From Massilia sp. WG5 (GTDB lineage: Bacteria > Pseudomonadota > Gammaproteobacteria > Burkholderiales > Burkholderiaceae_D): a stretch of DNA of 64,000 bases. Positions 46,481 through 53,006 of this stretch are shown piece after piece. Each line of letters starts with the position of its first letter. Position 1 is the first letter of the stretch. The translations under genes were made by a program, and so were the position numbers. The DNA is taken from contig NZ_CP012640.2 in assembly GCF_001412595.2 (NCBI RefSeq), positions 372,001-436,000 of the forward strand, given 5' to 3'. The notes beneath the pieces are model-generated. The model was not told the DNA's origin and did no database searches. It worked only from the letters and a program-made list of their open reading frames with translations.

Positions 46481-47905
46481 TCAGAACGAGAACGGCATCC
46501 TCAGCATCAGGGTGACGTCCGGGGTGTCGCGGGTCAGGCCGGCGCCCACCGAGACGTTCAGCGTGCGCTTGTCGCTCAGGCGGTAGGAATAGCCCAGCAG
46601 CAGGGTGCCCAGCTGGATGCGCACCGAGCCCGGCACCACCTGGCCGCCCTGGCGGGTGCGGGCTACCGAGTTGTGGTCGTAGCCGATGCTGAACGAGGCC
46701 TTTTCGTTCAGCGCCAGGCCCATGCCGAAGTTAAAGCCGAACACGTCGCCTGGTTTCACGTCGCCCAGGAACTCGCGCTCGCCGTTCAGCACGGTGCGGT
46801 AGACGTTGCCGCGCTTGAAGTTGTGGGTATAGCTGAAGCTGCCGAAGAAGATCGCCGGGTCGGACGGCATCAGCCAGGTGACGCTCGGCTGCAGGGAATA
46901 GAAGCCGGAGCCGGTCGGCAGGTCGAGCGGCAGGCCGGTGCCGGTGACGTTCTCGCCCAGGCAGCGGGTCTGGCAGTCGGTCACGACTTCGAAGGGATCG
47001 CGGCCGGTGCGCGACTTGAAGCGCAGGCCGGCAATGTAATACGGCTTGTCGATGCCGCCGTCGTTCAGCTGGTAGCGCCCGCTGAGCTCGACGTCGCCGA
47101 CCGCCTTGCCGCTGGTGTCGAAGGCGCGTTCGGTGGCGGTGCCGGTGAACAGCTCGCGGCTGACCGTGGAGTCGCTGCGGTAGACGTAGGGGACCTTGGC
47201 CTCGAGTTCCAGGCGGTTATTGAAACCGTAGCGGAAGGTCGCCGCGGCGGTCGTCGTGTTGCGCTTGACCTCGCGCACGTCCAGCAGGCCGATCAGCAGG
47301 GCGGGAATCACCGTATAGCCGACCAGCGCCACCCGGTTGCTCGACGAGTAGCCGTACTGGACCGAGGGTTCGAACACCAGCTTGCCGCGCGGCGTCAGCA
47401 CACCCGGCGTTTCGAAGATCGGCGCCACCTGCGGCGCGCGGCTGGCTTCGCTGGGCGGACGGCCGACCGTGTCGCCGCTGGCGATCGGCTGCGGCGACGG
47501 CGCCGGCGCGGCGCCGTTGTCCATCTGCTGGCCGTTGGCGGCCGCCGCGGCCGGGCCGGCGCCGCGCAGGCGGTCGAGCGAGTTGCCCGGCGCAGCGGAC
47601 GGATAAGGCGCGGCCGGCTGTCCCGCCACCGGCGCGCTGATGGGCGACGGCAACAGCGCAGTCGCCGTGGCCGGCGGCTGCGGATTGCCGGTGCCGCGCA
47701 CCGTGTCGAGCTGGCTGCCCGCCGTCACAGCGCCCGCGCGCAGCTGACGTTCCAGTTCGTCCACACGGGCTCGCTGTTCTTCCAGCTGTTGTCGCATGAT
47801 CTTCAGCTGTTCCAATAGATCAGGGCCGGATTGGGCGCCGGCCGGGAAGGCCGCGAGGACAAGGCTGACGCCAATCACGCTCGACAGCGCTGGAAATTTT
47901 TGCAT
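46481..47905 (-). CDS. outer-membrane barrel with N-terminal coiled coil, FapF-like secretion channel
   Basis: A 474-residue exported protein. Signal peptide to about residue 24 (FPAGAQ). Residues 29-57 are a heptad coiled coil (LLEQLKIMRQQLEEQRARVD). A Pro/Ala-rich linker runs to about 165. The rest is an amphipathic beta-barrel with alternating strands, ending in aromatic F (LMLRMPFSF), the outer-membrane targeting signature. Pseudomonas FapF has the same coiled coil, plug and trimeric barrel, and exports functional amyloid. Here it is last in a five-gene unit with a C39 peptidase, the same position as fapF. The linker also holds LDTVRGTG and LDRLRGAG, reminiscent of the RGG motif in the substrates. 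Confidence 0.75.
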   Translation of the reverse strand: MQKFPALSSVIGVSLVLAAFPAGAQSGPDLLEQLKIMRQQLEEQRARVDELERQLRAGAVTAGSQLDTVRGTGNPQPPATATALLPSPISAPVAGQPAAPYPSAAPGNSLDRLRGAGPAAAAANGQQMDNGAAPAPSPQPIASGDTVGRPPSEASRAPQVAPIFETPGVLTPRGKLVFEPSVQYGYSSSNRVALVGYTVIPALLIGLLDVREVKRNTTTAAATFRYGFNNRLELEAKVPYVYRSDSTVSRELFTGTATERAFDTSGKAVGDVELSGRYQLNDGGIDKPYYIAGLRFKSRTGRDPFEVVTDCQTRCLGENVTGTGLPLDLPTGSGFYSLQPSVTWLMPSDPAIFFGSFSYTHNFKRGNVYRTVLNGEREFLGDVKPGDVFGFNFGMGLALNEKASFSIGYDHNSVARTRQGGQVVPGSVRIQLGTLLLGYSYRLSDKRTLNVSVGAGLTRDTPDVTLMLRMPFSF

Positions 47906-47929
47906 ATTGCTTTTCTCCGGTAGAACCCG

Positions 47930-48433
47930 TCACCTTCCTGTGACGGCTGAGTTTAAGGCGTTCGCGAGCGTGGACTGGAAATTCATGTTTTGCAACATTC
48001 CGCGCGCGCTGACGTTGGCATTGATGATGGTCTGGTTACGGATCAACTGGTCGTTCAGGCTGTTCTGGATCATGGTGGCGCCCAGTGCGCTGCTGCCGAG
48101 CTGGACGTTGAGGTCGCCGACCCCGTTCTGGATCAGGTGGGCTTGGCCGGCGGCGTCGCCCGAGAGTTTCGAGATGCCGCCGGCCAGGCTGCCCAGGTCG
48201 CCCAGGTCCAGCTGGCTGCGTTCGACGACGTTGCCGTTGATGGTGACGATCCGTTCAATGCCGAGCGAGACGACGAGTCCGGTGTCGGTCTCGAAGCCGC
48301 CGCGCAGGGCGTCGAGGGCAGCCGGTTCGACCGCCTGCGCCGGGTCGAAGGGGTTGTCCGGCGCTTCCGCGAGCCCCTGGCCGGCGACCGCGGCGCAGGC
48401 CAGGAGCAGGCAGATCTTGACGGGGAGGCGCAT
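47930..48433 (-). CDS. small exported protein with RGG and QN motifs, FapE-like
   Basis: A 167-residue protein with a signal peptide to about 22 (GQGLA). AALDALRGG (ending Gly46) looks like a double-glycine site with Leu at -7 and -4. Then GLVVSLGIERIVTINGNVVE and, at residues 123-137, QNSLNDQLIRNQTI, with an earlier related LIQNGVGDLNV. The QN box recurs in both other substrates of the locus. GGAGA precedes the ATG at 48433. It lies 11 bases after the C39 gene and 24 bases before the barrel gene, as fapE does in Pseudomonas. It may be a minor fibre subunit, nucleator or chaperone. Confidence 0.7.
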   Translation of the reverse strand: MRLPVKICLLLACAAVAGQGLAEAPDNPFDPAQAVEPAALDALRGGFETDTGLVVSLGIERIVTINGNVVERSQLDLGDLGSLAGGISKLSGDAAGQAHLIQNGVGDLNVQLGSSALGATMIQNSLNDQLIRNQTIINANVSARGMLQNMNFQSTLANALNSAVTGR

Positions 48434-48444
48434 GGTATCTCCTC

Positions 48445-51445: not shown

Positions 51446-51574
51446 GCTACACGGATGAGTTCGCTAAGTATTTGTTTTTGTTGACTTTGTGCGCATGGTC
51501 CTACGGCGCGGGTAGTACTTTTCCTGCATAATTTGCCGAATTTGCCGGCATACTGTTTCAAATCCGGTACAGAG

Positions 51575-51655
51575 GTGTCAACTTGGGTACTGCAACGTAC
51601 ACACCCGCGTTCACACCTTTGACACACCCTGTTACAGATGTGAAGAATGTGTGAA
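51575..51655. promoter_or_regulatory. candidate enhancer sites for the sigma-54 activator
   Basis: Two inverted pairs: GTGTCAA (51575-51581) with TTGACAC (51619-51625), and TTCACAC (51610-51616) with GTGTGAA (51649-51655). They lie 130-225 bases before the sigma-54 promoter, a normal enhancer distance, between the activator stop codon and its presumed target. Confidence 0.5.
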
Positions 51656-51659
51656 CCCC

Positions 51660-53006
51660 TCAGGACCGCATGCCATGCTTGCTCAGAAGGCGGTACATCG
51701 TGGTGCGCGACACGCCCAGGTCGCGCGCCGCGCGGCTGACGTTCTGGCCGCTGCGGTCGAGGCAGTCGCGCAGGGCGGTTCGCTCCGAGCGCATCCGGGC
51801 GTCGTCCAGCGCCGCGGAGGTCGGGGCGGGAATCCCGGATGACAGTCCGAGGTCGTCGGGCGTGATCAGGCGCCCGTCGGACATCACCATCGCACGGCGC
51901 ACGCGGTTGATCAGCTCGCGTACATTGCCAGGCCAGTCGTGGTCGAGGATGGCGGCGATCGCGCGGTCCGAAAAGCCTTTCAGGCGCGGCGCCTTCTCGC
52001 TCGTATAGACGTGGAAGAAGTGTTCGGCCAGGGCGACGATGTCCTCGCGCCGTTCGCGCAGGGGCGGAACCGTCACCGGCACCACGGCCAGGCGGTAGTA
52101 CAGGTCTTCGCGGAAGTCGCCCTTCGCCACGGCCTGCTGCAGCTGCACGTGGGAGGCGGCGATCACGCGCACGTCGACCGGGATGTTGCGTGTGCTGCCC
52201 AGGCGGCAGATTGTCTTCTCCTGCAGGAAGCGCAGCAGGTTGGCCTGCAGATCCTTCGGCAGGTCGCCGATCTCGTCGAGGAACAGGGTGCCGCCATCGG
52301 CCGATTCGATCAGGCCGGCCTTGCTGCGGGTGGCGCCGGTGAATGCGCCGCGCTCGTAGCCGAACAGCTCGGAGTGGATCAGGGAGGGCGAGATCGCGCC
52401 GCAGTTGATCGGCACGAAGGGGCCGGCCGCGCGGTCGGATCCCGAATGGATGGCCTGGGCGGTCAGCTCCTTGCCGCTGCCGCTCTCGCCCCAGATCAGC
52501 ACCGGCGCCCCGACCTTGGCGACCCGGTCGACCTGCGCGCGCAGACGCACGATCGCGTCGCACTGGCCGATCAGCGGCGAATCGGCATGCGCATGATCGA
52601 TCAGCTGCTGGCGGCGGCGCTTCAGCATCGCCCAGCCGTGCGCATGCCCGAGGGTGTGCGACAGGCGCAGCGGATCGACCGGCGCGGTATGGTAGTCGCA
52701 CAGGTGTTCGATGACCAGGTCGCGGCAGGGTGTCGATTCGAGGTCGCGCGGATTGAACACGCCGACCCATTGCATATTGCTGTGGCGGCGCAGGAATGCG
52801 TCGATTTCGCCCGGGCGCTGCTGTTCGCGGTCGTGCACCAGCAGTCCGACAAGGTAGTGGTTAGCGCGTAATTCTCGCCCGGCGTCGCCGAGGCTCGTGA
52901 CGCTGCAGATCTCCCAGTCCGGCATGACACCGCGCAACAGGGTGTCCGTATCCGCGTGAGCCGGGGCGATGCACAGCAGGCGTTTATGGGCCAATCCATC
53001 CTCCAT
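51660..53006 (-). CDS. sigma-54-dependent activator, VpsR/Fis-like
   Basis: A 448-residue regulator. An N-terminal receiver-like domain (about 8-130, HKRLLCIAPAHADTDTL) lacks the usual DD and phospho-Asp pattern, as in VpsR. The AAA+ domain (about 145-380) has WGESGSGKELTAQ, ELFGYERGAFTGATRSK (the GAFTGA sigma-54 contact) and GGTLFLDEIGDL. A Fis-type helix-turn-helix ends it (RAARDLGVSRTTMYRLLSKHG). VpsR-type proteins drive biofilm matrix genes with c-di-GMP. The ATG at 53006 is chosen; the frame reads on upstream but without support. It is likely the direct activator of the Fap-like operon. Confidence 0.88.
   Translation of the reverse strand: MEDGLAHKRLLCIAPAHADTDTLLRGVMPDWEICSVTSLGDAGRELRANHYLVGLLVHDREQQRPGEIDAFLRRHSNMQWVGVFNPRDLESTPCRDLVIEHLCDYHTAPVDPLRLSHTLGHAHGWAMLKRRRQQLIDHAHADSPLIGQCDAIVRLRAQVDRVAKVGAPVLIWGESGSGKELTAQAIHSGSDRAAGPFVPINCGAISPSLIHSELFGYERGAFTGATRSKAGLIESADGGTLFLDEIGDLPKDLQANLLRFLQEKTICRLGSTRNIPVDVRVIAASHVQLQQAVAKGDFREDLYYRLAVVPVTVPPLRERREDIVALAEHFFHVYTSEKAPRLKGFSDRAIAAILDHDWPGNVRELINRVRRAMVMSDGRLITPDDLGLSSGIPAPTSAALDDARMRSERTALRDCLDRSGQNVSRAARDLGVSRTTMYRLLSKHGMRS

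Follow-up and report, generated by a model that had tools for sequence, protein, structure and literature searches.

A probable second branch of Fap-type secretion loci in Massilia and a candidate leader motif in its exported proteins

The Fap system of Pseudomonas exports a functional amyloid with the help of a C39 peptidase, FapD, and a coiled-coil outer-membrane barrel, FapF, whose genes flank that of FapE. According to the passages of the published reports cited here, secretion requires the active-site cysteine of FapD (PMC5557850), FapB and FapC contain three repeats 'almost invariably' (PMC12822426), and known fap operons often lack fapA (PMC3792158). In P. fluorescens PF07, expression of fapA-E proceeds from a mapped -24/-12 promoter that needs RpoN and the adjacent activator BrfA (PMC9207406), a sensor of cyclic di-GMP (c-di-GMP; PMC13101488). 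A 2025 survey of GTDB genomes, whose screen required homologues of the FapB/FapC repeats, found more than 90% of 1602 fap clusters to be canonical and called Fap 'evolutionarily fixed' (PMC12822426). Looser relatives have been seen before, with homologues of fapD and fapF noted as colocalised in five further phyla (PMC6173800). Here we describe a locus in a 64,000-nucleotide stretch of the Massilia sp. WG5 genome, the window of this study, which we consider likely to represent a divergent second branch of Fap, termed type 2.

The locus comprises six genes on the minus strand, which encode, in order of transcription, an enhancer-binding protein (EBP), a large Gly/Ala-rich protein, a 143-residue protein, a C39 peptidase, a 167-residue protein and an outer-membrane barrel (Table 1). 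Gene set, order, strand and sizes are those of a first-pass annotation of this DNA. Its proposal that the locus is an export system related to Fap, encoding FapD-, FapE- and FapF-type proteins in this order and an unusual large exported protein besides, is borne out as well. Gene starts were picked from start codon and signal peptide, and Sec-type signal peptides are recognisable by inspection on the last five products. There is no gene in the position of fapA, between the promoter site and the Gly/Ala gene. What is new here is the type-2 branch and a double-glycine-type leader, for neither of which, in the type-2 loci or in FapE, we found a description in the open-licence literature searched. 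Our counts refer to two collections. In a first set, sequences were picked automatically by gene order (47 of the 143-residue family, three of them added by hand, 47 FapE-like, 34 Gly/Ala, a few of which are partial, and 48 C39 proteins), without copies that lie at contig ends or in mis-chained loci. The second, referred to as named loci, consists of the best 80 of 535 barrel relatives found in GTDB genomes by one pattern.

The relationship to Fap is most evident in the export machinery. Residues 156-474 of the barrel match the sequence of crystallised FapF in a PDB sequence search (E 5.6e-34), and in a Foldseek search with an AlphaFold2 model predicted from 18 sequences the best 18 matches are all FapF chains (TM-score by target 0.75-0.81). 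The model, with a mean predicted local distance difference test score (pLDDT) of 61.6 and a predicted TM-score of 0.52, contains a helix at residues 27-58, a low-confidence segment at 63-168 and strands at 176-469, and from residue 171 on 20 of its 31 ten-residue blocks have a pLDDT of at least 75. In the best of seven heptad registers, 7 of 10 a/d positions of the helix are occupied by L, I, V or M. These observations point to the FapF-like barrel with an N-terminal coiled-coil-type helix that had been proposed initially, and thus go against the prediction of a barrel unlike FapF, which the first-pass annotation had named as counter-evidence. The score with the NCBIfam FapF model, at 152 bits, does not reach the equivalog cut-off of 700. 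Similarly, the C39 protein, which by sequence is a FapD relative with a catalytic triad, remains below the curated cut-offs of both NCBIfam FapD (144 bits for a cut-off of 330) and FilB. The catalytic cysteine is kept in 18/18 canonical and 47/48 type-2 sequences, the remaining row being a gap, and the histidine and aspartate in all 66 (18 canonical and 48 type-2).

The relationship extends to two of the exported proteins. By profile comparison, the 167-residue protein, encoded between the C39 and barrel genes as fapE lies between fapD and fapF, is a relative of FapE, to which its family aligns in hhalign with a probability of 95.6 (E 1.1e-8) with signal peptides and 88.5 (E 2.7e-6) without, compared to E-values of 0.072 and 0.44 for FapA as negative control. 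The 143-residue protein appears weakly FapB-like: with signal peptides cut, its family aligns to FapB over the last 36 columns (probability 63.9, E 6.6e-5), the controls being FapA (E 0.69) and FapC (probability 1.6). The 143-residue and FapE-like families also resemble each other (probability 94.9). Relatives of the 143-residue protein number 1362 among 8000 scored candidates, with no Pfam domain in the 120 that were listed, and its alignment found no match in the PDB. An iterated search from this family that pulled in FapB and FapC was set aside, since a small database makes drift possible at an inclusion threshold of E 1e-3; hhalign without signal peptides took its place because signal peptides alone had produced a probability of 45 between the N-terminus of the Gly/Ala protein and FapC.

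The presumed main subunit, the Gly/Ala protein, contains 30% Gly and 23% Ala, and it had been viewed at first as a silk-like protein that replaces FapC. The comparison with silk has to be abandoned, since the linker shows a glycine period of three (GGX; lag-3 autocorrelation 0.22 with a shuffle standard deviation of 0.05) and a negative correlation at lag 2 (-0.16). Of the proposed replacement, the unusual large exported protein is present, whereas homology to FapC is lacking: the tail of the Gly/Ala protein aligns to the tail of the weakly FapB-like 143-residue protein (probability 92.7, E 4.3e-7) but not to FapB or FapC (1.9 and 0.1). The tail motif is thus only weakly linked to the Fap repeats, and these alignments lend no support to FapC as an ancestor of the Gly/Ala protein. 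In place of the three imperfect repeats of FapB and FapC, the inspected alignments show one tail motif each in the Gly/Ala and 143-residue proteins. The Gly/Ala-type tail is recognised in 56/80 named loci by a hidden Markov model (HMM) of the tails only, some of these genes being partial, and in 29/80 on full open reading frames. The middle block, which is found in 21/34 copies, gave no profile match that would reveal a hidden FapC-like repeat, and counting repeats by regular expression (0-2 in FapB, 0-3 in FapC) was too crude to be used.

The same properties bear on the nature of the product. It is possible, though in our view less likely than not, that a Fap-type machine here exports a non-amyloid protein, an adhesin or hydrogel-like matrix made for example of polyglycine-II-like GGX bundles, with the QN tail serving only as export or anchoring signal. 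The GGX periodicity, the single tail motif and the undetectable FapC homology would agree with such a product. However, AlphaFold2 yields no fold for the Gly/Ala protein (pLDDT 35.5) and there is no PDB sequence match, which leaves polyglycine-II packing unsupported; the counterparts in L119, L123 and L136 are rich in N, S, T and D, as would fit an exchangeable linker with a kept tail, and linkers are described to vary in Fap (PMC3792158); finally, the tail motif is common to the Gly/Ala and the weakly FapB-like 143-residue protein. In three genomes (L034, L057 and L058) the whole cassette including the regulator is tandemly duplicated and the Gly/Ala protein of one copy is much shorter. L037, L038, L039, L069 and L071 contain a tandem pair of Gly/Ala genes ahead of a single export gene set. 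A 1476-residue exported protein with a QN-type tail is encoded near a FapF-like barrel in L134 (Indioceanicola profundi plasmid, 2727-7157).

A further feature of the type-2 loci is a conserved leader in two of the exported proteins, whose register, E-L-x-x-hydrophobic-x-G-G, is the one of the double-glycine leaders of bacteriocins. It was defined by the strict pattern [LM]xxxRG[GRK] within residues 16-110, and by a relaxed version where H, T, S or A may replace R. The leader follows the Sec signal, at residues 23-67 in FapE-like proteins and 31-88 in the 143-residue family. The strict pattern is found in 45/47 FapE-like proteins (0.76 in shuffled sequences), 35/47 of the 143-residue family (0.15) and 16/18 canonical FapE (0.11), compared to 0/18 FapB, 1/18 FapC and 1/16 FapA (together 2/52) and 0/34 Gly/Ala proteins; some of the latter, including that of the window, have an RGG without Leu soon after the signal peptide, which was excluded from the counts. 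Relaxation raises the numbers to 45/47 in the 143-residue family and 18/18 in canonical FapE, with up to 4.0 in shuffles. In the named loci, 76/76 FapE-like and 68/77 143-residue proteins (76/77 relaxed) match; this count covers whole open reading frames, which were retrieved by HMMs spanning the leader itself, and part of the genomes are already represented in the first set. A pattern restricted to Leu missed the FapE-like proteins of L125 and L133, which have long N-terminal extensions, and of L129, which has M for L. Among 263 other exported proteins taken as background control, 30 carry the motif; on reading the list after the script, 28 of these proved to be FapE-like proteins of named loci and two a 143-residue-type fragment (L135) and a FapF-type barrel (L114), leaving none in the remaining 233.

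We propose that [LM]xxxRG[GRK] is probably a concrete candidate for the site at which FapD-type C39 peptidases would cut FapE-like and 143-residue proteins. Within canonical Fap the leader singles out FapE, which is reported as the only Fap protein with complete N-terminal processing in mass spectrometry (PMC5557850). The candidacy of FapE as a substrate of FapD is prior (Rouse et al.), and a 2025 review still words the processing of FapE and FapF by FapD as 'thought to' occur (PMC12822426); our addition is the conserved leader at a defined site, which makes the question of what FapD cuts addressable at the level of a single residue and would tie functional amyloid export to bacteriocin maturation. 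A related motif, [LM]xxxRG[GATRKSM], whose last position was widened once the sequences had been seen, occurs in the barrel linker of 35/45 type-2 proteins (shuffle 1.59). It would fit the suggested clipping of the FapF linker by FapD (PMC5557850), yet 15 of 16 canonical FapF proteins do not contain it. As an alternative, RG[GRK] could be an uncut tag for docking or export, recognised either by the barrel or by a C39 protein with the role of a chaperone. The variable residue after RG (G, R or K) would be accounted for in this way, as would the published statements, in the passages cited, on the absence of canonical C39 sequences from Fap proteins and on the unclear target of FapD (PMC5557850). 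We consider such a tag unlikely in light of the conserved catalytic triad, the requirement for its cysteine in the Pseudomonas system (PMC5557850), and the periplasmic action on GG-leader peptides that has been proposed for the C39 peptidase and FapF homologue of a Neisseria island (PMC11798529). The match of the leader to the bacteriocin register likewise speaks for cutting.

The separation of type-2 loci is reflected in phylogenetic trees. Maximum-likelihood trees with 47 sequences each, one of barrels and one of C39 domains, resolve canonical Fap (ultrafast bootstrap, UFBoot, 94 and 100, respectively), type 2 (94 and 79) and Fil-like loci (100 in both), and FastTree recovers the same three groups from 74 barrel and 69 C39 sequences, with a support for type 2 of 0.62 and 0.43. 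By these sequence relationships the window locus forms a branch of its own beside canonical Fap and Fil-like loci, grouping with canonical loci in neither tree. It lies outside the FilC/FilB clade and has no FilD neighbour. That it would instead constitute a Fil-type 'putative pilus' or a Nap-type peptide system is very improbable by comparison with Fap and Fil proteins since, although the C39 protein scores nearly as well with FilB (2.7e-39) as with FapD (3.7e-42), the barrel reaches just 53 bits with FilC compared to 152 with FapF, Fil-like loci split off with full support, the exported proteins are FapE-like and weakly FapB-like, and a distinct Fil-like locus is found in the same genome. 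The latter (L051; G000:C1:4686000-4700000, 3943-13582) encodes relatives of FilA, FilB, FilC and FilD together with an MshE-type c-di-GMP domain protein, and four of its exported proteins have leaders of matching register (DSDLSKVSGR, DSELSTVNGQ, DSALSKIGGR and DSELAQVSGA). It is the only other locus in this genome that is matched by NCBIfam FapF. Canonical and type-2 loci coexist in two genomes, G091 (L113, L128) and G146 (L115, L129).

The type-2 locus is widely distributed. Within the genus, 32 of 37 genomes, its own included, contain a barrel match with E <=1.1e-135, three have weak matches only and two none; these matches and the kept gene order argue against a chance arrangement. Across the phylum, NCBIfam FapF is matched in 42/398 genomes, in 7 above cut-off. 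The best 80 of the 535 barrel relatives come from Massilia, Janthinobacterium, Duganella, Pseudoduganella, Telluria, Rugamonas, Rhodoferax, Variovorax, Undibacterium, Noviherbaspirillum and others, the nearest to the window being from Massilia (85-86% identity). In 74/80 of these loci the barrel is accompanied by the C39 and 143-residue proteins, in 73 also by the FapE-like protein and in 59 by the EBP, with the order 143-residue/C39/FapE-like on one strand in 72; the six without C39 are cut by a contig end right at the barrel. The first-pass annotation had named C39 and barrel genes travelling without the exported proteins as evidence against its proposal, and this was not seen: the 143-residue protein is present in 74/74 uncut loci and the FapE-like protein in 73/74, the sole case in which no such gene was recognised being L139. 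Loci of Rhodoferax, Undibacterium, Variovorax and Noviherbaspirillum have the barrel and C39 genes in divergent orientation.

Several observations weigh against the assignment to Fap and the working order proposed below. At E <= 1e-3, HMMs of FapB, FapC and FapE, built here from 18 canonical gene sets, recognise 1/47 143-residue proteins, 0/34 Gly/Ala tails and 0/47 FapE-like proteins. Homology between the Gly/Ala protein and FapC is undetectable by profile comparison, the similarity of the 143-residue protein to FapB is moderate only, and the support for type 2 in the C39 tree is moderate. The barrels of L046, L047 and L134 have no C39 in the fetched stretch although uncut beside the barrel. 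With respect to the leader, its last residue is [RK] in canonical and mostly G in type-2 proteins, the last Gly being replaced by R or K also in part of the 143-residue family, which is unusual for a C39 cut site; the gap in the FapE mass spectrometry data, about 70 residues, is longer than the leader (PMC5557850); and the Gly/Ala protein, presumed main subunit, does not have the pattern. L046 and L047 are second barrel copies, in genomes that also hold a barrel with C39 (L060, L067). The near invisibility of type-2 subunits to canonical HMMs also suggests why a widespread second branch, with its 535 barrel relatives found by one pattern and the best 80 examined here, may have been missed by the 2025 survey.

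Sigma-54 control, presented initially as a distinctive property, turned out to be common to both branches. When 350 bases upstream were scanned for sites scoring at least 9 of 12, with expectations from base shuffles, a -24/-12 site was found in 28/29 type-2 loci (1.6 expected), all but L136, and in 25 of these it lies 74-91 bases away from the start codon. Canonical loci have such sites in 12/16 cases (1.0 expected); L113 and L114 reach 8, and lower scores were obtained for the second copy of L115 and of L117. The EBP of the window and its counterpart next to canonical fapF in L102 share 48% identity, all four other EBPs scanned, including that of L102, contain a VpsR domain, and exact GAFTGA is found in 64/72 EBP open reading frames (49/54 with duplicates merged). 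The predicted RpoN-type promoter and BrfA-type activator of canonical Fap are therefore present at the window locus, and this regulatory layer, already known from canonical fap (PMC9207406), is not new. TGTNACA boxes upstream of the sigma-54 site, a pattern chosen by eye once the sequences had been read, number 27 compared to 1.4 expected, in 18/30 type-2 loci, and might be a binding site of the EBP, as a lead only.

What the sequences show are the homologies, the gene order, the promoter-like sites and the leader motif with its distribution; control by c-di-GMP, a cut at the motif, gating and the assembly of fibres are our inference. High c-di-GMP would activate the BrfA-type protein, which together with sigma-54 would turn on the operon, and Sec would carry all five products over the inner membrane. 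The Gly/Ala protein as main subunit and the 143-residue protein as minor, nucleator-like subunit would remain unfolded in the periplasm, where the C39 peptidase would cut the FapE-like and 143-residue proteins at [LM]-xxx-R-G-[G/R/K] and possibly also the barrel linker at LxxxRG[TA]G. Cutting would license secretion via the FapF-type barrel. Outside the cell, the exported proteins would use the QN-motif tails that they have in common to form a fibre or matrix rich in Gly. By its sequence features the locus is thus probably a matrix-fibre secretion system. On a more general level, we tentatively entertain, without favouring it, the view that FapF-type channels and periplasmic C39 peptidases form one secretion class, using first a Sec signal and then a double-glycine leader, with Fap, type-2 Fap, Fil and Nap as branches that export very different products. 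The channel would open upon cleavage of FapE-like proteins by C39, and in type 2 upon that of the barrel linker as well.

Table 1. Features of the type-2 locus, in window positions.
Feature	Positions	Strand	Basis
BrfA-type EBP, 448 residues: N-terminal VpsR domain PF20161, sigma-54 AAA+ domain with GAFTGA, Fis helix-turn-helix	51660..53006	-	Pfam
TGTAACA box, possible activator-binding site, lead only	51630..51636	-	
Predicted -24/-12 sigma-54 promoter TGGCATTGGTTGTGCA, 82 bases upstream of the Gly/Ala start codon	51430..51445	-	
Exported Gly/Ala protein, 572 residues, probable main secreted subunit	49645..51363	-	
Parts of the Gly/Ala protein: signal peptide, Ser/Thr/Asn-rich part, conserved block, GGX-rich linker, conserved tail	block about 50983-51168		
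Conserved C-terminal motif of the Gly/Ala protein	49648..49782	-	hhalign to 143-residue family
Exported 143-residue protein, C-terminal part weakly FapB-like	49131..49562	-	
Double-glycine-type leader core LEQARGG of the 143-residue protein	49323..49343	-	
Exported C39 peptidase, FapD relative, 229 residues, triad C59, H143, D159	48445..49134	-	
Exported 167-residue FapE relative	47930..48433	-	hhalign
Double-glycine-type leader core LDALRGG of the FapE-like protein	48296..48316	-	
FapF-type outer-membrane barrel, 474 residues, N-terminal coiled-coil-type helix and disordered linker	46481..47905	-	
Leader-like motif LDTVRGTG, barrel linker	47687..47710	-	
Second leader-like motif LDRLRGAG, barrel linker	47555..47578	-	

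Elsewhere in the window, two similar genes of the aspartyl/asparaginyl beta-hydroxylase type are located at 45518-46414 (identified by Pfam), just past the downstream end of the barrel gene and with transcription running towards the latter, and at 63276-63998 (by eye). A Ser/Gly-rich exported protein of 153 residues without Pfam match is encoded at 61006-61467, adjoining a DUF2145 gene.

Collectively, the locus shares with canonical Fap the FapD-E-F gene order, the FapF fold, the homology and leader of FapE, a neighbouring EBP with VpsR domain and a -24/-12 promoter. It differs in the absence of fapA, in the 143-residue and Gly/Ala proteins with one tail motif each compared to FapB and FapC with three repeats, in the presence of the leader in two proteins instead of one, in RG[TA]G-type motifs of the barrel linker (35/45 compared to 1/16) and in scores below the NCBIfam cut-offs for FapD and FapF. 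The adjacent EBP is of the same kind as BrfA, a likeness established via the EBP of L102 and not the BrfA sequence, but it is located upstream and in tandem with the operon, whereas BrfA is encoded downstream and reversed (PMC9207406, PMC13101488). The Fil putative pilus (NCBIfam FilA-FilD) likewise combines a C39 peptidase, a FapF-like barrel and exported proteins whose leaders share this register, but forms a separate clade, includes a FadL-type FilD and has no recognised FapE- or FapB-like protein. Finally, the nap island of Neisseria, with the C39 peptidase NapP and the FapF homologue NapF, resembles the locus, by its published description, in the combination of a C39 peptidase, a FapF-type channel and substrates with GG leaders, although the latter are cationic bacteriocin-like peptides linked to autolysis (PMC11798529).

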